Assembly: GCF_019880405.1 (NCBI RefSeq)
Contig: NZ_CP082269.1
Span: 1,116,001 to 1,180,000, forward strand
Source: Enterobacter sp. C2
Lineage (GTDB): Bacteria; Pseudomonadota; Gammaproteobacteria; Enterobacterales; Enterobacteriaceae
Length of the DNA stretch: 64,000 nucleotides
Direction: 5' to 3'
Part shown: in pieces, positions 32,998-43,374 of the stretch
Layout: every line of letters begins with the position of its first letter
How positions within the stretch are numbered: position 1 is the first letter of the stretch
Program-made: the position numbers and the translations under genes
The notes under the pieces: model-generated
What the model was told of the DNA's origin: nothing
Database searches by the model: none
What the model saw: only the letters and a program-made list of their open reading frames with translations

Positions 32998-34086
32998 TCA
33001 GTGGTTAAACGTCTCTACCTTCTCAAACGCCGCACGCAGCGTCTCGGGCGTTAACGTCACCGGCAGATAGTGAATCGACTCCACCGGGCGCAGGGTATGG
33101 GCGATGACCCGATCCAGCTCGTCACGGTTATGGATATCGACCTCCAGCGCCGCCAGGGTGGTCGGCAGATTGAAGCGTTGGAAGGCATTGACCAGCTGGG
33201 CTAACACCTCATCCTGGCCGAGCAGGGCGCTCTGCACCAGAATGCCGTAGGCCACCTTGGTGCCGTGCAGGAACTTATCGGTCTGCGGCAGCACCGTCAG
33301 ACCGTTGTGCACCGCATGGGCGGCGGCAACGCGGGTGTAGCGCTCGCCGAGTCCGCCCACCATTCCACCTCCGGCAATAATCGCATCTACCACGTCACGG
33401 AATGCCTGGGTAAGCTCCCCGCGCTGCTGGTCCGCCAGCGCGGTTTCGCTGCTCTCCAGCAGCACGTCGCGGATCGCCAGCGCGCCGTTAATCCCCAGCC
33501 GCACGGTCAGCGGCAGGCTGGCCGGATCCGGGGCCAGCACCACCGCCTCATACCACTTCGCCAGCGTATCGCCGATGCCCGCCAGCAGATACTCCACCGG
33601 CGCGTCGAGAATAATCTGCGGCTCCACCAGCACCAGGAAGTTGGCGTCGTCGAAAATTTCAAAGTGCAGCGCCTGACCCGTGTCGTTATACCAGACCGAG
33701 AGCGGCGTCCAGGCCGCGCAGGTGGCGGCGATGGTCGGGATCGCCACGACCGGCAACCCTAAGCGGCGCGCCACCGCCTTCGCGGTATCCAGCAGTGCGC
33801 CGCCCCCAATACCAATCACCACGCTGCGGTCGCTGCCCGCATCGTTCACCAGCGCGGTTACGTCATGCTCGCTGCAGTGGCCCCTAAACAGCAGGTGCTT
33901 CACGCCCGGGGCGTTAACGCTCTCCGGCAGGTAGGGGCGGGCGGCCGCAATGGCGCGTTCGCCATAGATTAAAACCGCGCGGGAGAGCTGCTCTGGCGTA
34001 TAGAAATCGTTCAGACGCGCCAGGCTACCGCTGTGGGAGTAGTAGTTGGCCGGGCCGGGTACAACGCGGATATCGGTGTTGCTCAT
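32998..34086 (-). CDS. hcxA: Hydroxycarboxylate dehydrogenase A (YbdH)
   Basis: HcxA is an iron-containing/GldA-type dehydrogenase; E. coli YbdH reduces 2-oxo acids such as 2-oxobutyrate and 2-oxoglutarate with NAD(P)H. From ATG 34086 the protein is 362 residues, as in E. coli. It has the nucleotide loop IGIGGGALLDTAKAVA and metal-ligand histidines in AAHAVHNGL and FLHGTKVAYG. An upstream ATG (34134) would add a poorly conserved 16-residue extension. It is divergent from the ABC importer genes. The link of 2-oxo acids to the methionine-salvage genes next door is intriguing but unproven. Confidence 0.93.
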   Translation of the reverse strand: MSNTDIRVVPGPANYYSHSGSLARLNDFYTPEQLSRAVLIYGERAIAAARPYLPESVNAPGVKHLLFRGHCSEHDVTALVNDAGSDRSVVIGIGGGALLDTAKAVARRLGLPVVAIPTIAATCAAWTPLSVWYNDTGQALHFEIFDDANFLVLVEPQIILDAPVEYLLAGIGDTLAKWYEAVVLAPDPASLPLTVRLGINGALAIRDVLLESSETALADQQRGELTQAFRDVVDAIIAGGGMVGGLGERYTRVAAAHAVHNGLTVLPQTDKFLHGTKVAYGILVQSALLGQDEVLAQLVNAFQRFNLPTTLAALEVDIHNRDELDRVIAHTLRPVESIHYLPVTLTPETLRAAFEKVETFNH

Positions 34087-34120
34087 GACTGTGTCCTTGT
34101 GCGGAATCGCTAACCCGATG

Positions 34121-34144
34121 TTATGTCTGGACATCCGGATGGCT
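34121..34144. promoter_or_regulatory. Candidate weak MetJ operator (three tandem met boxes)
   Basis: Three adjacent 8-mers, TTATGTCT, GGACATCC and GGATGGCT, each match the met box AGACGTCT at five of eight positions, in the tandem register MetJ requires. They lie between hcxA and the importer. Each box is weak alone, so this is a hypothesis supported by the strong met boxes elsewhere in the same island. Confidence 0.35.
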
Positions 34145-34247
34145 AATAATATTTCGCTTTATCTTATGCCTTTTCTGCTGTTGCCAGTCAAGCGCGGCTA
34201 TGAAAAATTCGCTAAATCAATCTATTAATCCCAGGAAAGCCTCACAG

Positions 34248-35750
34248 ATGAGCGTTAACCATCTCGAGATGCGTGCGATCAGCCTCGCCTTTGCCGGTGT
34301 TAATGCCCTGACGCAGGTGAGTTTCAGCCTGCGCGGCGGATCGGTCCATGCCCTTACCGGGGCCAACGGCGCGGGAAAGTCCACGCTGATGGCGGTGCTG
34401 TGCGGCACCTGGGCAGGCTATGAGGGTGAGATCGTCATTGATGACCAGCCGGTCGCCATTCGCTCTCCGCTGGATGCCAAACGCCTCGGCATCCATCTGG
34501 TGCAGCAGGAGGTCGATGTGGCGCTGGTTCCCGGTCTTAGCATCGCGGAAAACATCATGCTCGATAAGCTCGCCGAGCCGGGCTACGCCTGGCGCTGGTC
34601 TACGGTACGCCAGCATGCGCGGGATGCGCTGGCCCAGCTTGACGTCTCGCTCGATGTCAGACGCGCTATCGACAGCTGCACACTTGCGGAGAAACAGCAG
34701 ATCCTGCTGGCCCGCGCGCTCTCTCATCGCTGCCGCTTTTTGATCCTCGATGAGCCTACCGCGCCGCTGGATCAGCACGAGAGCGAGCGGCTGTTTACCG
34801 TGGTACGAGGCCTGCAGCAGCAGGGAATTGGCGTGGTCTTTATCTCCCACCGCATTCACGAGCTGAAAGCCATCTGCGACACCCTGACGGTGCTGCGCGA
34901 CGGCAGGCTGGTGGAGTCCGGCCCGATGGCCGCCCTCAGTGGGGAGGAGATCGTGGAGAAGATGCTCGGCCATCAGCTGAACGATATCTATCCCCCGCGC
35001 CGTCCGCCGCACGGGGAAGAGACCCTGCTGCGCGTGGAGGGGCTGCATGACGAGAAGCTACTGAAGGATATCTCCCTGCACCTGCGCAGGGGCGAAATCC
35101 TCGGTATCGCCGGCCTGGCGGGCGCGGGCAAAACCGAGCTCTGCAAGGCGCTGTTTGGCGCGGAGAAGAGCCGCGTCGCCCAGGGCGAGCTGAACGGCCA
35201 GCCGTGGCGGCCTCGGGATCCGGCGGATTCCGTTATACGCGGTATTGCGCTGATCCCCGAGGAGCGGCGCAAAGAGGGCATCTTTATTGATGAGCCGATT
35301 GTCATGAACCTGGCGGTCAGCGCGGACAACAGCTTCTCTCGCTGGAGCCTGTTCGGCCATCGCAAAGCCTGGCGCTGGGCGCAGACGGTGATTGAGCGCG
35401 TGGGCGTACGCACCACCGGCCCGGGGCAGATCCTGCGCCGCCTCTCCGGCGGTAACCAGCAGAAGGTGGCGATAGGCAAATGGCTGCGCGGCAACGCCAG
35501 CGTGGTGATTTTCGACGAGCCTACCAAGGGCGTCGATGTGAAAGCCAAAACCGATCTCTTCCGCCTGATTGACGGCCTCGCCCGGGAGGGCAAGGGGATC
35601 GTCTACGCCTCCGGCGAGTTTGCCGAGCTGGTGGGCCTCTGCGATCGCATCTGCGTGCTGTGGGATGGCCGCATCGTGGCGGAGATAGCCGGAGCAGAGG
35701 CCCGGGAAGAGACACTACTTTACTATTCGACCGGAGGAGCGGCGGCGTGA
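34248..35750 (+). CDS. Sugar ABC importer ATPase, RbsA/CUT2 type (candidate methylthioribose uptake)
   Basis: The 500-residue protein carries two fused ABC domains as in RbsA/XylG. The first has Walker A GANGAGKST, a degenerate signature CTLAEKQQILLARAL and Walker B FLILDEPTAPLD. The second has GLAGAGKTE, LSGGNQQKVAIGKWL and VVIFDEPTKGVD. CUT2 importers carry monosaccharides, mainly pentoses and related compounds. It starts at ATG 34248, with AGGAA about ten bases upstream; ATG 34200 would add 16 residues. It overlaps the permease start by four bases. The substrate is unknown from sequence. The neighbouring mtnK, whose substrate is the pentose thioether methylthioribose, suggests that compound. 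Confidence 0.88.
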   Translation: MSVNHLEMRAISLAFAGVNALTQVSFSLRGGSVHALTGANGAGKSTLMAVLCGTWAGYEGEIVIDDQPVAIRSPLDAKRLGIHLVQQEVDVALVPGLSIAENIMLDKLAEPGYAWRWSTVRQHARDALAQLDVSLDVRRAIDSCTLAEKQQILLARALSHRCRFLILDEPTAPLDQHESERLFTVVRGLQQQGIGVVFISHRIHELKAICDTLTVLRDGRLVESGPMAALSGEEIVEKMLGHQLNDIYPPRRPPHGEETLLRVEGLHDEKLLKDISLHLRRGEILGIAGLAGAGKTELCKALFGAEKSRVAQGELNGQPWRPRDPADSVIRGIALIPEERRKEGIFIDEPIVMNLAVSADNSFSRWSLFGHRKAWRWAQTVIERVGVRTTGPGQILRRLSGGNQQKVAIGKWLRGNASVVIFDEPTKGVDVKAKTDLFRLIDGLAREGKGIVYASGEFAELVGLCDRICVLWDGRIVAEIAGAEAREETLLYYSTGGAAA

Positions 35751-36742
35751 GCAAAGCCCTGTCAGTAAAAGCGGCGGCGTCGGGCCGTCAGCAATTTTTC
35801 GATTTTCTCTATAAGTGGGGCATGCTGCTGACCGTGGTGCTGCTGGTGGCTATCTTTGGCATCGCCTCGGATAACTTCCTCGACCCCTTTAACATCATCA
35901 ACATTCTGCGTTCGATTGCTATCGTGACGGTGATTGCCGTCGGCGTCTCCATTTCACTGACCATCGGCGGGTTCGATCTCTCCGTGGGGTCGACGGCGTC
36001 GCTGGCGAACGCGCTGGTGATCTCGCTCTTTGTCTGGCACGGCTTTGGCACTACGGAAGCGATCCTCGTGACTCTGGCACTCTGTACGCTTGTCGGCCTG
36101 TTTAACGCCTTCCTGATCGTTGTGCTGCGCATTCCTGACATGCTCGCCACCCTTGGCAGCCTGTTTGTGATCCAGGGCGTGGCGATGACCTACAGCTACG
36201 GCGGGTCGATCACCGAAAATATGCTGCTGCCGAGCGGCGAGATGGCGGAGGGGCTGATCCCGCCGGGCTTCAGCCTGCTCGGCCAGGTGCCGATCATTGT
36301 CATTGTAATGCTGGTGGTCACGGTGGTAGCCCAGCTTGGCCTGTCGCTGACCACCCACGGACGGCGGATGTACGCCATCGGCGGTAACCCGGAGGCGGCA
36401 CGCCTCTCCGGGATCCGCACCACCCGCTACAAGGTGGCGGCCTACGTCATCGCCTCGCTGCTGGCGGGACTCGGCGGCATTCTGCTGGCCTCGCGCATCG
36501 GCTCCTCGCAGGTCAACGCCGGGAGCGGCTACCTGATGGACGCGGTGGCGGCGGCGTGGATCGGCTTCTCGCTGGCCGGGTCCGGCAAGCCTAACGCGCT
36601 CGGCACGCTGGTGGGGGCGGTGATCCTCGGGGTGCTGTCAAACGGGCTGGTGATGCTCTCCGTGCCCTACTACGCAATGGACATTATTAAGGGACTGGTG
36701 CTGGCCGGTGCTCTGGCGTTGACCTATTTCCAGCGTCGTTAA
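35747..36742 (+). CDS. Sugar ABC importer permease, RbsC/CUT2 type
   Basis: This 331-residue membrane protein belongs to the BPD_transp_2 family (RbsC-like), with about 8-10 helices. Family motifs include GGFDLSVGSTASL near the N-terminal third, the EAA-like YAIGGNPEAARLSGI and GSGYLMDAVAAAWIG. It starts at GTG 35747, overlapping the ATPase stop (GTGA), with GGAGG upstream. A second permease gene is absent, so a homodimer is likely, as with RbsC. Confidence 0.88.
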   Translation: MSKALSVKAAASGRQQFFDFLYKWGMLLTVVLLVAIFGIASDNFLDPFNIINILRSIAIVTVIAVGVSISLTIGGFDLSVGSTASLANALVISLFVWHGFGTTEAILVTLALCTLVGLFNAFLIVVLRIPDMLATLGSLFVIQGVAMTYSYGGSITENMLLPSGEMAEGLIPPGFSLLGQVPIIVIVMLVVTVVAQLGLSLTTHGRRMYAIGGNPEAARLSGIRTTRYKVAAYVIASLLAGLGGILLASRIGSSQVNAGSGYLMDAVAAAWIGFSLAGSGKPNALGTLVGAVILGVLSNGLVMLSVPYYAMDIIKGLVLAGALALTYFQRR

Positions 36743-36767: not shown

Positions 36768-37832
36768 ATGAAAAAATTTGCACTCTCACTGCTGGTGCTG
36801 GGCCTGCTGAGTTCTGTTCCGGGCTACGCGGCGACGCCTGCACCGGTTCCGGCCGCGCTGGCTAACCACAGCGGACCGGTACGCATCGCGCTGATCCGTA
36901 ACCTGGGCTCGGACGATAACACCACCCAGTTCGTCTCCGGCGCGCTGACGGAGGGCAAAAAGCTTGGCTTTAAAGTCAGCACCTTCCTCAGCAACGGCGA
37001 CGACGCTAAGTTTCAGGACTTTGTTAATCAGGCCATCAGCCAGAAGTACGACGGCATTATTCTCTCCCAGGGCCGCGATCCTTACTCAACCGAGCTGGTG
37101 AAAAAAGCGGTAGATGCAGGCATTGCCGTCTCGGTATTTGATACCGCTATCAACGGTACCATCCCCGGCGTGACCGTAACCCAGCAGGATGACGCCTCGC
37201 TAACCAATCTCTCCTTCGGCGAGCTGGTGAAGGACTTCAACGGCAAGGCCAATATCATCAAGCTGTGGGTGGCTGGCTTCCCGCCGATGGAGCGCCGCCA
37301 GGCGGCCTACCAGGCGCTGCTGAAGCAGAACCCAGGAATTAAAGAGCTGGAGTCCATCGGGGCGGTCTCTTCCGACGTGCAGGGTGATACGGCGAATAAA
37401 GTCGGCGCGGTGCTGGCGAAGTACCCGAAAGGGCAGATCGATGCTATCTGGGGTACCTGGGACGCCTTCAGTCAGGGCGCGTACAAGGCGCTGAAAGAGA
37501 ATGGTCGCACCGAGATCAAACTCTACAGCATTGACGTCTCCAACCAGGATCTGCAGCTGATGCGCGAGTCCAACAGTCCGTGGAAGGTAAGCGTGGCGGT
37601 GGATCCGAAGCTGATTGGCGCGACCAACGTGCGTCTGATCGCCAACAAGCTCGCAGGGGAGCAGACGCCAGCCACCTATGACTTCAAAGCCGCGGCAATT
37701 CCGCAGGCGCTGCTGGCGGCCCAGCCGGGTGCGGTGAACGTCGCCACCCTGGGGAAAATCATTCCGGGCTGGGGCCAGACCGAAGATTTTATCGCCCCGT
37801 GGTTCGCCACTCTGCAAGCGAAAAACAAATGA
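36768..37832 (+). CDS. Periplasmic sugar-binding protein of the CUT2 importer
   Basis: The 354-residue precursor has a clear Sec signal peptide (FALSLLVLGLLSSVPGYA, cleavage near residue 22) and a periplasmic-binding-protein type 1 fold (Peripla_BP_4, as in RbsB). The YDGIILSQGRDP segment and an NxxD-type sugar pocket region (LYSIDVSNQDL) fit the fold. It follows the permease by 25 bases. Its stop overlaps the next gene by four bases, which ties the LVIVD protein to this transporter. Ligand specificity cannot be read from the sequence. Confidence 0.88.
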   Translation: MKKFALSLLVLGLLSSVPGYAATPAPVPAALANHSGPVRIALIRNLGSDDNTTQFVSGALTEGKKLGFKVSTFLSNGDDAKFQDFVNQAISQKYDGIILSQGRDPYSTELVKKAVDAGIAVSVFDTAINGTIPGVTVTQQDDASLTNLSFGELVKDFNGKANIIKLWVAGFPPMERRQAAYQALLKQNPGIKELESIGAVSSDVQGDTANKVGAVLAKYPKGQIDAIWGTWDAFSQGAYKALKENGRTEIKLYSIDVSNQDLQLMRESNSPWKVSVAVDPKLIGATNVRLIANKLAGEQTPATYDFKAAAIPQALLAAQPGAVNVATLGKIIPGWGQTEDFIAPWFATLQAKNK

Positions 37833-39070
37833 GTGCGCTGCCTGTGCCTGACTACAGCCACAATATGCGGCTGATTGGTCACTCGGATCAGGGCGGACGG
37901 CCCGACGGCGTGCAGCTAATGGTGCACCGTGGCTTTGCTTACATCGGTCATATGGTTTCCCAGGGTTTCTCGATTGTTGACGTGCGCGACCCGAAAAATC
38001 CACGTCCCGCAGGCTACGTGCCCGCGCCGCCGGGGACCTGGAACGTTCACCTGCAGGCCCATGACGATCTGCTGCTGGTGATCAACGCCCGGGATCTCTT
38101 TGCCGATGCCCGTTTCGCTGACGAGAAGGTCTACTACACCCGCTCGGTAGGGGAGACGGTGAGCGACGTGCAGGACAAGGGCTGGAGCGCCGGGCTGCGC
38201 GTGTTTGATATCTCCACGCCGGACCAGCCAAAAGAGATTGGTTTTCTGGGGCTGGACGGCATCGGCATTCACCGCATCTGGTACGTGGGCGGCCGCTGGG
38301 CCTATGTCTCTGCCCTGATCGATGGCTTTAGCGACTACATCTTCCTGACTATCGATCTTGCCAATCCACGTAAGCCCGAAGTGGCGGGACGCTGGTGGCT
38401 GCCAGGGATGAACCAGGCGGCGGGCGAGACGCCGACGTGGCCGGAGGGCAAGCGTTACGCCCTGCATCACGCCATTATTGCTGGAGATACCGCCTACGGC
38501 AGCTGGCGCGACGGCGGCCTGACGCTGCTGGATGTGAAAGATCGCAGTGCGCCGAAGCTCATCAGCCATCGTAACTGGAGCCCGCCGTTTGGCGGCGGAA
38601 CCCATACGGCGCTGCCGCTGCCGGACCGGGATCTGCTGGTGGTGCTGGACGAGGCGGTGCTGGATAACCAGCAGGATGGCGAGAAGCTGATCTGGCTGTT
38701 TGATATTCGCGAGCTGGCTAATCCGGTAAGCATCTCTACCTTCCCGCAGCCGGAGGAGATCGACTATGTCGCGAAAGGCGCGCACTTCGGGCCGCACAAC
38801 CTGCATGAGAACCGGCCGGGGAGTTTTGTCAGCTCGACGCTGATCTTTGCCACTTACCAGAACGCCGGAGTACGGGCCTACGATATCTCTAACCCGTATC
38901 GCCCGGTAGAGACCGGGGCACTGGTGCCCGCCGCGCCAGCGAAGATGATGGATACCCGTCCTGGCCGTCCGCAGGTGATCCAGTCCTGCGACGTGTTTGT
39001 CGACGCGCAGGGGATCATCTACAGCACCGACTACAACGGCGGATTGTCGGTAATAGAGTATTTGGGCTAA
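37829..39070 (+). CDS. Seven-repeat LVIVD beta-propeller protein
   Basis: From ATG 37829 the product is 413 residues with no signal peptide, so it should be cytoplasmic. Seven LVIVD-type blades are visible, near residues 46-58, 122-134, 170-183, 230-243, 288-299, 347-359 and 405-411 (for example [17 protein letters not shown] and [17 protein letters not shown]), predicting a seven-bladed propeller. Histidines fall at similar points of successive blades (H78, H148, H213/H214, H259, and H319/H323/H326 in [11 protein letters not shown]). This looks like a metal site and is reminiscent of SBP56-type methanethiol oxidases. It is coupled to the binding-protein gene and convergent with mtnK. The function is unknown; an enzymatic step on the imported compound is my inference. 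Confidence 0.8.
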
Positions 39071-40266
39071 CTGTACTGCCGAACCCGGGCAATCAGTTCA
39101 TCAACGTTATGGATGCGGTCGGCAATGACGATCAGCGCCTTGCCTAAATGGATGGCGTGGCGCAGGCATTCGTGGCGCATCTCGTCGTCAGCGATGGTGT
39201 CGATATCCGCCACGTGAGAGAGGCCCACGCTGCGGCGAATCAGCTCCGTGCCGCAGAAGCCTATGGCATCGTGCCACACCTTCTGCAGGAACTGAGCGGC
39301 ATAGCCTGGATGGGCCAGCGCCACGTCCCGGGTCTTCTCTGCGGCCAGGGCAAGGAATGTCTCTGCGAAGGTGTTCCATAGCTCCTGAATATCGTTCAGG
39401 CGCTGCTCGCGGGCGGCGGCGGCATCGCGAATACCCAGATGCCCCGGCAGGCCGCAGTAGTTAAGCAGCAGGTTGCCAATAGCCGTACCAAGGTCAAAGC
39501 CCATGGGACCCACGTAGCCAAACTCGGCGTCAATCGCCTTCAGGCTGCCTTCGGCAACAAATATCGAGCCGCTGTGGATATCGCCGTGCAAGAGCGCTTC
39601 GGCATGGGAGAGAAAACGCTGTTTAAGCCCGGCCACCGCTAGCAGCAGGGCGTTATCGTCACGCAGAGCGACCACGTCAGCGTCAATCGCCGCCGGGTAG
39701 CTGTTGCGCTCGTGAGCGCGGTACGGGTCTTCAAAGAAGAGATCTTCGGTAATGCCGCACATCTCTGGATTGATAAACTGCGCCACCTGCGCCTTTTTCT
39801 GCGCCGGGGTGAGATAAAAATCGCTGGTGTGGAACAGGGTCTGGGCCAGGTACGCCGCCAGCTGGCGGGCGGCCTGCGGATAGTATGCGCCTTTGATCAG
39901 CTCCCCGCGCCAGATGCGGTGATCGGAGAGATCCTCCATCACCATCACCGACAGGTCAGGATCAAAGTGGTGGATCTTTACCGTATGCGCCGGGCAGTGC
40001 CGATAGTGCTCTACCAGCGTCTGCGCCTCCAGCCGGGCGCGGTCCAGGGTCAGCGGCCAGGATTCGCCCACGCAGCGCACGTAGGGCAGGGCCTGCTTGA
40101 CGACGATCCGGCTTACGCCCTCGGCGTCGAAAATTTTAAACACCAGATTCAGGTTGCCGTCACCGACTTCATGCGCGCTAACCAGTTCGGATGACTGCTC
40201 CAGACCAGCATATTGCCGGGCGTAGGCCACCGCGTCGGCGGCGTTGAAAGTTCGGTATTGCGACAT
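39067..40266 (-). CDS. mtnK: S-methyl-5-thioribose kinase MtnK
   Basis: MtnK phosphorylates methylthioribose to methylthioribose-1-phosphate, the entry to methionine salvage. From ATG 40266 it is 399 residues, the length of the Klebsiella enzyme. The kinase motifs are HGDIHSGS (catalytic Asp) and DAEFGYVGP (metal-binding Asp). Upstream in-frame ATGs (for example 40338) lie within the met boxes and are rejected. The gene is divergent from mtnA under a MetJ operator, and its 3' end overlaps the LVIVD gene by four bases. E. coli K-12 lacks it. Confidence 0.95.
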
Positions 40267-40303
40267 TGCCGGTATCCTCAATTTTCTGTTTATAAAGCCA
40301 TTC

Positions 40304-40319
40304 AGACGTCTATACATCT
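40304..40319. promoter_or_regulatory. MetJ operator between mtnK and mtnA
   Basis: AGACGTCT (8 of 8 to the met box) is followed directly by ATACATCT (6 of 8), two boxes in perfect 8-bp tandem. They lie 38 bases before the mtnK start and 53 before mtnA. S-adenosylmethionine-bound MetJ should repress both genes when methionine is plentiful. Confidence 0.85.
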
Positions 40320-40371
40320 GTAATTCATCCTGACACAATACGATACATCAACGCAACAGGGATTTAACGCT

Positions 40372-41388
40372 ATGCAGCCACTCCAGACCACCAGCCTGCG
40401 CGTCACCGATAATCAGCTTTTTATTCTCGATCAGCAGGCGCTTCCGCAGGAGAAGCGCTGGCTGCCCGCCGACAAGGTAGAGACGCTGGTGGGCCATATT
40501 CACGCCCTGCGGGTGCGCGGTGCGCCGTTGATTGGCCTCTCCGCCAGCCTGCTGCTGGCGCTGCTGGCCGAGCGGGGCGCAAGCCAGACCGCTCTGGCCC
40601 AGGCGCTGGAGACGCTCCGGGCGGCGCGCCCAACGGCGGTGAACCTGATGAACAACCTTGACCGCATGAAGCTGGCCCTGACGGAGGTGGATTTTGTCCC
40701 GGCGCTGGTGGCCGAAGCCGAGCGGCTGGTTGCCGAGGATAAGCAGCTTTGCGCTCGAATTGCCGCGGCGGGCAGTGCGCTGGTGACGCCCGGCAGCCGC
40801 CTGCTGACGCACTGCAATACCGGCGGGCTGGCGACCGCGGGTGTGGGTACGGCGCTGGGGGTCATCTCCCAGGCCTTTACCGACGGCAAGGTCGTCAACG
40901 TCTGGGTAGGGGAGACACGCCCGCTGTTGCAGGGAGGCCGTCTGACGGCATGGGAGCTGGCGGAGCTGGGCATTCCCTGCCAGCTGATCACCGACTCAAT
41001 GGCGGCCAGCCTGATGGCGCAGGGCCAGGTGGATGCGGTGTGGGTCGGCGCGGACCGTATTGCGGCCAACGGCGACGTGGCGAATAAGATCGGCACCTAC
41101 TCGCTGGCGGTGCTGGCCCGCTATCATGGGATCCCGTTTTACGTTGCTGCCCCGCAGACCACGCTGGATCCGCTCTGTCCGAACGGGGAGGCCATTCCTA
41201 TTGAGCAGCGCGCGGCCAGCGAAGTCACCGGCGTAGCGGGCAGCTTCGGGACGGTGCAGTGGGCCCCCGAATCGACGCTGGTCTATAACCCGGCGTTTGA
41301 CGTTACCCCGGCCGCGCTGATTAGCGGCTGGGTGCTGGATACCGGGGTCGTTACGCCGGACGAGGTGGCGGCGGGATTTTTCAGATGA
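40372..41388 (+). CDS. mtnA: S-methyl-5-thioribose-1-phosphate isomerase MtnA
   Basis: MtnA converts methylthioribose-1-phosphate to methylthioribulose-1-phosphate. The 338-residue protein belongs to the eIF-2B-alpha-like isomerase family. Key motifs are [20 protein letters not shown] (catalytic Cys) and [19 protein letters not shown] (catalytic Asp). It is divergent from mtnK and convergent with mtnD, separated by 20 bases holding a hairpin. Confidence 0.95.
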
Positions 41389-41395
41389 TAAATAA

Positions 41396-41420
41396 CGCCT
41401 GGCGCGGACTACGCCAGGCG
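41396..41420. terminator. Hairpin shared by mtnA and mtnD ends
   Basis: CGCCTGGCG (41396-41404) pairs perfectly with CGCCAGGCG (41412-41420). The seven-base loop contains the mtnD stop codon (41409-41411). It probably ends both convergent transcripts. The T content after the stem is better on the minus side (GTTATTTATC). Confidence 0.6.
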
Positions 41421-41951
41421 AGGATAGCCCTCGGCAATGGCGTCGCCGGTGAACTGGGCGATCCACCCCTCGGGGTTGTCGAAGATACGAATGGCGGTAA
41501 AGTTCGGCTCGGATCCCATATCAAACCAGTGCGGCGTGCCTGCCGGCACTGAGATCAGATCGTTTTTCTCGCACAGCACCTGATAGACCTCATCACCAAT
41601 GTGCAGGCAGAACAGGCCCGCGCCCTCGACAAAAAAGCGCACTTCATCTTCGCCGTGGGTGTGCTCACTGAGAAACTTTTCCCGCAGCGCCTGCTTGTTA
41701 GGGTTATCGGCGCGCAGGCTGATCACATCCCAGCTCTGATAGCCCTTCTCGGCAACCAGTCGATCGATGGCGTGCTGATAGGCGTCGATTACCGCCTCAG
41801 GCGCAGGATCGGCACCGAGATCGCGGTCGGCCTGCCAGCGCTCAAAGCGTACGCCTTTGGCGTTCAGCTGCTGCTGAATCTCACCCGCGTCGGTGCTATG
41901 CCACGTAGGCTGGCGGGGATCATTGACGGAATAGATAGTTAACGCGCTCAT
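41409..41951 (-). CDS. mtnD: Acireductone dioxygenase MtnD
   Basis: MtnD oxidises acireductone. With iron it yields the methionine precursor 4-methylthio-2-oxobutyrate; with nickel it makes an off-pathway product. The 180-residue cupin has the metal ligands His97, His99, Glu103 ([13 protein letters not shown]) and His141 (GTPHWFDMG). It is the last gene of mtnBCD, and its start overlaps the mtnC stop by four bases. Confidence 0.95.
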
Positions 41952-42637
41952 GAGGGGATCTGCTCCGGGTTAATGTCGTTAAAACTGTGCACCTGGTGAT
42001 GTTGGCTGGCGGCATCATCATCGCCACGAATCAGCTGCACGGTGCGCAAACCGGCCTCTGCGGCGGCGTCCAGCTCCTGATGAATATCTGACAGGAAAAG
42101 GATCGACACCGGCGGCAGCGCGAGCTGCTCGGCAATGCTGCTATAGGCGCGCGCTTCACGCTTGGCACCGATGCGGGTATCAAAGTAGCCGCTAAACAGA
42201 TGAGTAATATCACCTTCGTCGCTGTAGCCAAATAACAGTTTTTGTGCGGCCACCGAGCCCGAGGAATATACATAGAGATCAATCCCCTGCGACTTCCATT
42301 TTTCCAGCGCGGGCAGTACGTCGGGGTAGAGATGGCCGGTAAAGTCGCCGTTGACGTAGCCGTCGTGCCAGATAATTCCCTGTAACGCCTTCAGCGCCGT
42401 CGACTTACGATCTTCATCCATAAAGCGGAACAGCGTCTCAATGAGATCGGCAGTGGAGGCATCCGCTTGGACGATCTCATCCCGCAGATTATCGAGAATG
42501 GATTTCACCGGCTCGGCATACTGCTGGGCAGTGACAAACGCCTCCAGCCGCTCGCGGGCGTAGGGAAACAGCACGTTATGCACGAAGCGGATATCGCTGG
42601 TCGTGCCCTCAATATCAGTAACGATGGCGCGGATCAT
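41948..42637 (-). CDS. mtnC: Enolase-phosphatase E1, MtnC
   Basis: MtnC is a HAD-family enzyme that enolises and dephosphorylates 2,3-diketo-5-methylthiopentyl-1-phosphate to acireductone. The 229-residue protein begins with the HAD motif [12 protein letters not shown] (Asp8), has motif II in [12 protein letters not shown] and a motif III/IV ending [12 protein letters not shown]. Four-base overlaps with mtnB and mtnD show tight coupling. Confidence 0.95.
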
Positions 42638-43248
42638 GATCTCTCCAGCAGGCGACGCTGCATTTCACACTCAAATAAAAACTCCAGCCCCTCAAGGTGG
42701 CGACGGGCTTCCGCCACGCTGCGTCCCCAGCAGGTGAGACCGTGTCCGCGCAGCAGGAAGCCGTAGCTTAGCGGCGTCTGGCGGGCATATATCTCAATAC
42801 GCCGGGCAAGGGCGGGGATATCCTGGTCATTATCAAACAGGGGAATAGAGACCGTGTCGAGGTGGCTGGTCTGTCCGCTAAGGGATTTCTGCATCTCGTA
42901 ACCCGCAAGCTTGAGCGTCGCCAGTTTCTCAACGCGTGACAGCACCGTGGCGTTGACCGTATGCACATGCAGCACGGCGTTCGCCTCCGGGTAGAGGCGA
43001 TAGATCAGCGTATGCAGGCCGGTCTCGGCGGAGGGCTTCCGTCCTGACGGGGCGCGATCGGTGGCGATCTCAACCTGCAAAAAGTCGTCCACCGTCAGGC
43101 TGCCCTTGTCTTTACCGGACTCGCTGAGCCAGCACCAGTCGGCATTTTCCCGTACCGACATGTTGCCGCCGGTGGCCGGTGCCCAGCCTTTAGCACCCAG
43201 CCAATGGCAGGCTTCTACCAGCGCCGGAAGTTGCAGAGGGTATGTCAT
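42634..43248 (-). CDS. mtnB: Methylthioribulose-1-phosphate dehydratase MtnB
   Basis: MtnB dehydrates methylthioribulose-1-phosphate and belongs to the zinc class II aldolase/adducin family. From ATG 43248 it is 204 residues, as in Klebsiella. Zinc ligands appear in HVHTVNAT and in HGLTCWG, and the GNMSVR motif binds the phosphate. The frame is open to ATG 43317, but that would run through the met boxes. It heads mtnBCD, divergent from ybdL. Confidence 0.95.
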
Positions 43249-43291
43249 AACGCTCCTGAATAGTGTGAGCAGAGTAATAACATTATGGTTT

Positions 43292-43307
43292 AGACGTCTA
43301 AGCGTCT
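43292..43307. promoter_or_regulatory. MetJ operator between mtnB and ybdL
   Basis: AGACGTCT (8 of 8) is followed directly by AAGCGTCT (6 of 8) in 8-bp tandem, 44 bases before mtnB and 68 before ybdL. This is the same design as at mtnK/mtnA, so mtnBCD and the aminotransferase should join the MetJ regulon. Confidence 0.83.
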
Positions 43308-43374
43308 TGATTGCCAAATACTAACATCGTGATATAGTGGCAGCAACATCAGTATTACACGCAGGCACCCATCC

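Follow-up and report, generated by a model that had tools for sequence, protein, structure and literature searches.

What does the product of mtrY do, a gene that lies directly after a gene for a sugar-type substrate-binding protein and beside the methionine salvage genes? We addressed this question in Enterobacter sp. C2, using a stretch of 64,000 nucleotides (contig NZ_CP082269.1 of assembly GCF_019880405.1, positions 1,116,001 to 1,180,000 of the forward strand) that we call the window and whose own numbering is used throughout. The gene occupies positions 37829 to 39070 on the forward strand, where an open frame, a Pfam match and a structural model describe a seven-bladed LVIVD propeller protein of 413 amino acids, hereafter MtrY. 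The gene was named in a 2011 paper that is said to be by Augustus and Spicer. The part of that paper available to us (PMC3228920) places mtrY, or COG5276, after mtrB of a putative methylthioribose transporter, beside ybdH and the mtn genes, and remarks that "its role is a mystery". By synteny and by this description, the gene at 37829 to 39070 is mtrY of the MetJ regulon. Among the papers listed in literature searches for mtrY, COG5276, methylthioribose and LVIVD we found no functional study of the family; of those listed for mtrY, PMC3228920 alone means the gene, the others using "mtry" as a term of statistics. In the available part of PMC5566837, the sole mention of the Klebsiella gene is as an entry in a table that describes a deleted region. 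A metal centre in MtrY is likely, judging from its conserved residues, and our tentative first choice of function, to which we give somewhat less than an even chance, is a cytoplasmic metal-dependent propeller hydrolase that may act on sugar lactones and whose partners would be a sugar transporter and dehydrogenases.

The first-pass annotation of this stretch, made from the letters, had noted histidines recurring along the repeats (78, 148, 213/214, 259 and 319/323/326), a pattern expected if the channel of the propeller houses a metal centre. To count conservation we took the window protein and 32 loci hand-picked from 123 blastp rows, which gave 22 near rows, the window protein among them, and 11 far rows; a single genus supplied five of the latter (L107-L111). 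H213, H259, H323 and E275 were kept in every near and far row (22/22 and 11/11), H148 in 21/22 and 11/11, and H41 in 22/22 and 10/11. After redundancy weighting (effective number 14.5), these six residues were among 13 columns other than glycine, proline, aspartate and asparagine that were conserved at 90% or more. Conservation of H214 was partial (22/22 near, 4/11 far), while H78 (18/22 near) and H319 and H326 (each 21/22 near) proved clade-specific, each being found in 0/11 far rows. Half of the histidines first named (H148, H213, H259 and H323) were thus kept and the rest were lost in most or all far rows, and H41 and E275 had been overlooked. H78, H319 and H326 were ruled out as metal ligands by their poor conservation in the far rows. 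Four further sequences, L112-L115, were left out of this count. Three of them (L112, 1324-3072, minus strand; L113, 481-2238, plus strand; and L114) make up a second group of LVIVD proteins, each about 580-600 residues long, in which, by eye, no histidine stands at the matching motifs; L112 carries the Pfam LVIVD match. This absence implies that the LVIVD repeat fold alone does not demand the histidine set, and the second group may be a non-metal branch of the same fold.

The fold itself was supported at several levels. Pfam LVIVD (PF08309) scored 28 bits over the whole protein against a gathering cut-off of 20.2, with no single stretch passing alone, and an NCBIfam scan of MtrY returned nothing above any cut-off. 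Seven LVIVD units had been expected at a spacing of roughly 50-75 residues; by eye they lie near residues 48, 123, 171, 230, 287, 347 and 405, which are 48-75 apart. An AlphaFold model (mean pLDDT 71.7, pTM 0.79, with several stretches below pLDDT 50) bears this out, its DSSP strands reading as seven blades of four, with an N-terminal strand (13-20) completing blade 7. Structural comparison identified one solved protein as closest, namely 5hrm, the propeller phosphotriesterase (haloalkylphosphorus hydrolase) of Sphingobium TCM1 (Sb-PTE). Foldseek placed 5hrm first with an E-value of 2.6e-17, the next match outside that entry being generic propellers at 2.2e-10. VIA-align paired 350 residues of chain 5hrm_B with MtrY at rank 6 (Z 30.1, rmsd 3.0, 22% identity), the longest and most identical alignment among the 50 rows listed, although its Z was tied with generic propellers; Ski8 chains had equal or slightly higher Z, yet 9-10% identity. 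Sequence searches agreed, in that a profile of 21 sequences used with hmmsearch retrieved only two PDB sequences, 5hrm (E 2.9e-11) and 5ioj (E 6.3e-11), and phmmer with L107, L126 and L124 also retrieved 5hrm (E 2e-7 to 5e-5). In its available part, PMC11656708 cites the 5hrm structure paper, the title of which ascribes to this seven-bladed propeller a binuclear metal centre. The anticipated metal centre in the channel is thereby backed both by conservation and by the match to a binuclear-metal propeller phosphotriesterase.

We next compared individual positions with 5ioj, the second Sb-PTE entry, by aligning the two proteins with MAFFT in three modes. The Sb-PTE metal ligands, which we take to be E201, H258, H389, E407 and H475, agree with the residue types at those positions of the 5ioj chain. 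H148 was aligned to H258 and H259 to H389 in all three modes, while H475 was paired with H323 in two modes and with H326 in one. The clade-specific H74 fell on H204 of 5ioj in all three modes, a residue outside the ligand set that we assume. All six candidate ligands have codons on the forward strand: H41 (37949-37951) at the end of strand B of blade 1, H148 (38270-38272), H213 (38465-38467) and H259 (38603-38605) at the start of strand A of blades 3, 4 and 5, E275 (38651-38653) just past strand B of blade 5, and H323 (38795-38797) just past strand A of blade 6. In propellers, the starts of the inner strands and the ends of the second strands share one face round the channel mouth. The inner strands of blades 3-6 in the model begin at or next to H148, H213, H259 and H323, and the second strands of blades 1 and 5 end at H41 and E275. 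Since these strand positions share one face, we infer from the topology of the model that the candidate ligands cluster at the channel mouth.

These positions suggest how MtrY might work. At the mouth of the central channel, the histidines of blades 1, 3, 4, 5 and 6 and the glutamate of blade 5 would bind the metal ions in an arrangement related to that of Sb-PTE, and by analogy with the phosphotriesterase the metal would activate water, which makes a hydrolase our first choice. The likeliest reaction would be the opening of a sugar lactone or a similar ester, a class of substrate favoured because mtrY genes sit with sugar importers and dehydrogenases; the lactone itself is a guess. In Enterobacter sp. 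C2, the substrate would derive from methylthioribose and its use would be accessory to salvage. The open frame of MtrY, its conservation, its profile and fold match and its gene context are observed facts, whereas metal binding, catalysis, hydrolysis and a cytoplasmic location are inferred; the first-pass annotation had seen no signal peptide, and none is visible by eye. The same histidines could be read differently, as the ligands of one iron or copper ion in a metal-dependent oxygenase or oxidase that oxidizes the substrate. In carotenoid cleavage oxygenases four histidines hold the metal, and in MtrY the A strands of four successive blades (3-6) supply the near-invariant H148, H213, H259 and H323. 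Nevertheless, the nearest solved relative by both sequence and Foldseek is a hydrolase, and no carotenoid oxygenase family was matched in Pfam at E-values up to 1, so that we regard an oxygenase as improbable.

The first-pass annotation had itself pointed to the SBP56 methanethiol oxidases as metal-dependent propellers of sulphur metabolism and had thought a role on a methylthio compound conceivable. A copper thiol oxidase of the SBP56/SELENBP1 type, acting on methanethiol or a methylthio compound, would fit the sulphur context and a propeller with histidines and glutamate thought to line its channel. According to the available part of PMC10362175, the copper residues of SELENBP1 include H137 and H140 (HxxH), D189 and E252, and H73/H74 (HH) are needed for activity. 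The near clade of MtrY likewise has an HH pair (213/214) and an HxxH motif (323/326), and the far relative L124 reached 28.4 bits for SBP56. However, these are 110 residues apart in MtrY and about 68 in SBP56, hhalign paired neither of them with the SBP56 motifs, and far homologues kept H214 in 4/11 rows and H326 in none. Against the PF05694 cut-off of 34, both L124 and MtrY itself (14.6 bits) fell short. Alignment of MtrY to a profile of six SBP56 proteins with hhalign covered 26 columns of generic repeat in another part of the chain (probability 60, E 8.8e-5). Homologues also occur outside sulphur contexts. Membership in SBP56 was therefore rejected on the family score and on the lack of an extended profile alignment, although a remote kinship among propellers is possible. 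Neither Foldseek nor VIA-align had the SBP56 chain 2ece among its 50 listed rows, an absence that we do not read as proof that the folds differ. Among the alternatives considered here, a thiol oxidase is the one that we find hardest to credit.

Having weighed the protein itself, we turned to its genomic context. Among the 80 best of 135 relatives, whose titles place them all in the Enterobacterales, MtrB was encoded upstream of MtrY in 78 loci with a gap of -4 to 256 bases; YbdH was present at 71 of the loci and the transporter ATPase at 60. Reduced loci comprised 10 with only YbdH-MtrB-MtrY, 7 with only MtrB-MtrY and 2 with only YbdH-MtrY. One of the MtrB-MtrY loci, L053, is a 3 kb contig whose missing neighbours are uninformative, and it was left out of what follows. 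Each of the other 18 reduced-set genomes had, away from the locus, a close permease (75-83% identity) and a methylthioribose kinase that scored above cut-off. Of these 18 permease matches, 11 were interrupted by one to three stop codons, possibly due to the roughly 29 query residues that lie upstream of the likely start. Compact sets of ybdH, a binding protein gene and mtrY, with no ATPase or permease alongside, were also seen on Erwinia and Rahnella plasmids (L097, 3681-7289; L098, 5608-9236). The 2011 paper, in its available part, describes a separate ybdH2-mtrB2-mtrY2 set in Pantoea and Serratia (PMC3228920).

The position of mtrY directly behind a sugar-binding protein gene in those 78 loci would suit a sugar mutarotase or isomerase that supplies the ring form accepted by the kinase. 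One relative (L122) also lies near an RbsD/FucU gene. Yet the reduced sets pair the gene with YbdH and have no kinase at the locus, though a kinase exists elsewhere in those genomes. To our knowledge, known mutarotases have other folds, and the metal-ligand set would be unusual for such chemistry. We consider a mutarotase about as improbable as an oxygenase, or marginally more so.

Co-occurrence with methylthioribose genes was assessed in a sample of 99 relatives, in which MtrB was counted at an E-value of 1e-60. MtrY was counted in 11 genomes, methylthioribose kinase above cut-off in 24 and MtrB in 15; a MtrY copy broken by stops (G030) was counted and a weak fragment match (G059) was not. 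Both the kinase and MtrB were present in all 11 MtrY carriers, the copies in G030 being broken. The association was significant by Fisher's test for the kinase (p = 2e-8) and for MtrB (p = 1e-11), as calculated with relatedness uncorrected. In one genome (G043), only 74 bases separate the MtrB match from the MtnK match (contig C2, 3257485-3259796) and MtrY was not matched anywhere, a natural case of the pair being present and MtrY missing.

Outside the enterics, homologues at 54-73% identity were found in rhizobia and relatives, Rhodobacterales and Caballeronia. A sugar ABC set lay directly upstream in 7 of 13 fetched loci (L099, L116, L117, L118, L123, L128 and L129), where MtrY was 62-73% identical to the window protein and the transporter parts 31-42% identical where tblastn detected them. 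An oxidoreductase was the next gene, or the next full-size gene, in 8 of 10 annotated near-clade loci (the exceptions being L119 and L122), and Pfam assigned five such neighbours (L100, L120, L121, L128 and L129) to FAD, zinc or FMN enzymes. Methylthioribose kinase was present on 1 of 9 alphaproteobacterial replicons with close homologues; these replicons represent 8 strains and are mostly plasmids rather than whole genomes, with L120, L121, L123 and L129 outside the count. The scarcity of the kinase, together with the different transporters, implies that the mtrY family is probably wider than methylthioribose. Hence the role round a methylthio compound that had been proposed finds support in the Enterobacterales context, published in 2011, but the alphaproteobacterial homologues are found with other transporters and mostly have no kinase on the replicon. 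A broader reading, which we put forward as rather unlikely, is that MtrY and its alphaproteobacterial relatives are an unrecognized family of cytoplasmic metal propeller hydrolases, probably sugar lactonases, that go with an importer and a dehydrogenase, and that YbdH-MtrY of enterics is a methylthioribose side branch apart from MtnK. If true, this family would be related to the flame-retardant phosphotriesterase but serve a natural function.

Several loci outside the enterics had further neighbours worth recording. In Roseicitreum antarcticum (L122, 7007-9852), the gene after a close homologue carries the annotation autoinducer-2 kinase, and the RbsD/FucU gene lies nearby. SfnB-type genes of sulphur acquisition adjoin the homologues in Rhizobium NXC24 and Agrobacterium leguminum (L101, 7986-10597; L118, 6986-11981) or lie close to them, a second link to sulphur. 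In Rhizobium tropici (L117, 9641-11929, minus strand), a molybdopterin-binding oxidoreductase (Pfam MoCoBD) is about 1.4 kb from the homologue.

A number of observations weigh against the proposed hydrolase. The AlphaFold model is of moderate confidence and was built on a shallow alignment (A1) of 65 enteric sequences, consisting of 64 loci of the 80 and the window protein, at 86-97% identity to the latter. When MtrY was used as a single-sequence query against the PDB, 5hrm was found only at an E-value of 0.17, which is not significant. The match of ligands is also incomplete: in all three alignment modes E275 fell two residues off E407 and H213 was aligned to no histidine of 5ioj, H41 had no partner in the 5ioj fragment, and E201 of 5ioj had no clear partner in MtrY. 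By eye, H317 of 5ioj sits in the strand taken as equivalent to that of H213. The ligand set of MtrY is therefore probably somewhat different from that of Sb-PTE, as far as the alignments can tell, and its substrate is probably different as well. Moreover, the use of this fold against flame retardants is of recent date and hence a poor guide to the natural reaction. Oxidoreductase genes are frequent next to any gene, and the loci in which they were scored, ten in all, were hand-picked. Finally, 4 of the 15 genomes with MtrB lacked MtrY (G022, G027, G034 and G043), which implies that MtrY is accessory to the pathway and not needed for import.

This dispensability, along with the tight linkage to the binding protein, would also be expected if MtrY were a non-enzymatic scaffold or regulator of the transporter that binds through its propeller. 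Two features argue otherwise. The invariant polar residues thought to line the channel are better suited to a conserved active site, and in alphaproteobacteria the higher identity of MtrY (62-73%) than of the directly upstream transporters (31-42%) points to an active site rather than a partner surface. We consider a scaffold unlikely, if slightly less so than an oxygenase or a mutarotase, and continue to favor the metal-dependent hydrolase.

The remainder of the locus in the window follows the described arrangement, with the gene order ybdH-mtrACB-mtrY-mtnKA read from the open reading frame list and a family scan. On the minus strand, ybdH (32998-34134, with a likely start near 34086) encodes a glycerol dehydrogenase-type dehydrogenase (NF007880). 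It is followed on the forward strand by mtrA (34200-35750), encoding the sugar ABC ATPase, mtrC (listed as 35660-36742, with a start near 35747 likelier), encoding the permease, and mtrB (36768-37832), encoding the sugar-type substrate-binding protein; the last 4 bases of mtrB are also the first 4 of mtrY. Beyond mtrY lie mtnK on the minus strand (39067-40338, likely start near 40266), encoding S-methyl-5-thioribose kinase (TIGR01767, 495 bits), and mtnA on the forward strand (40372-41388). The remaining methionine salvage genes mtnD, mtnC and mtnB occupy 41409-43317 on the minus strand (open reading frames 41409-41951, 41948-42637 and 42634-43317) and were named by synteny with the annotated Enterobacter plasmid CP103578. 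On that 517 kb Enterobacter hormaechei plasmid (CP103578.1, 412497-429735; L102), the whole region from cstA to methionine salvage is present, mtrY included.

Sites for MetJ were sought with a box consensus that we presume to be correct. Two strong box pairs were found in the window when 0.11 were expected. The first (40304-40319, 2 mismatches) lies between mtnA and the likely mtnK start, inside the mtnK frame as listed, and the second (43292-43307) lies upstream of the likely mtnB start (near 43248), again inside the listed frame. A weak three-box site (34121-34144, 15/24) between mtrA and the likely ybdH start was the third-best distinct three-box site of the window, and as two boxes (10/16) it was unremarkable.

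Wider searches outlined where the gene occurs. No mtrY match was obtained in a DNA search of complete E. coli genomes. A phylum-wide sample gave a match in 14 of 299 genomes, own genome included, with several matches weak or partial. Scanning viral_contigs with alignment A2 produced 45 pattern matches and no relative. A PF08309 search of the own genome gave no match and missed mtrY itself, making it uninformative.

Collectively, these results describe a conserved and already named protein with a newly argued metal site, which is a lead for an unsolved enzyme and not a new kind of system. For a gene called a mystery in 2011, they offer a specific active site that experiments can probe, and for the flame-retardant phosphotriesterase a possible family of natural relatives that work in the cytoplasm and are linked to the import of sugars. 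If the reaction were found, methylthioribose metabolism in Klebsiella, Enterobacter and their kin would gain a step, and the part played by the equally obscure partner YbdH might become clear.

When placed beside known systems, MtrY shares with Sb-PTE the seven-bladed fold, LVIVD-like repeats and histidines at the places of H258, H389 and, in two of three alignments, H475. It differs in that the Sb-PTE chains are longer (the two PDB sequences have 504 and 591 residues), the conserved H41 and H213 have no aligned histidine there, and E201 has no clear counterpart in MtrY. With SBP56/SELENBP1 (PF05694, 2ece) it has in common the propeller, the HH and HxxH motif forms of its near clade and a setting in sulphur metabolism, but most or all far homologues lack the second histidine of both motifs. 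The choice-of-anchor B family (TIGR04312) has similar LVIVD-type repeats, yet matched residues 230-358 weakly, at 23.9 bits against a cut-off of 100. By synteny and description, the gene is the same as the mtrY described in the available part of PMC3228920, to which the present analysis adds, as proposals, a function, the fold and the active-site residues.

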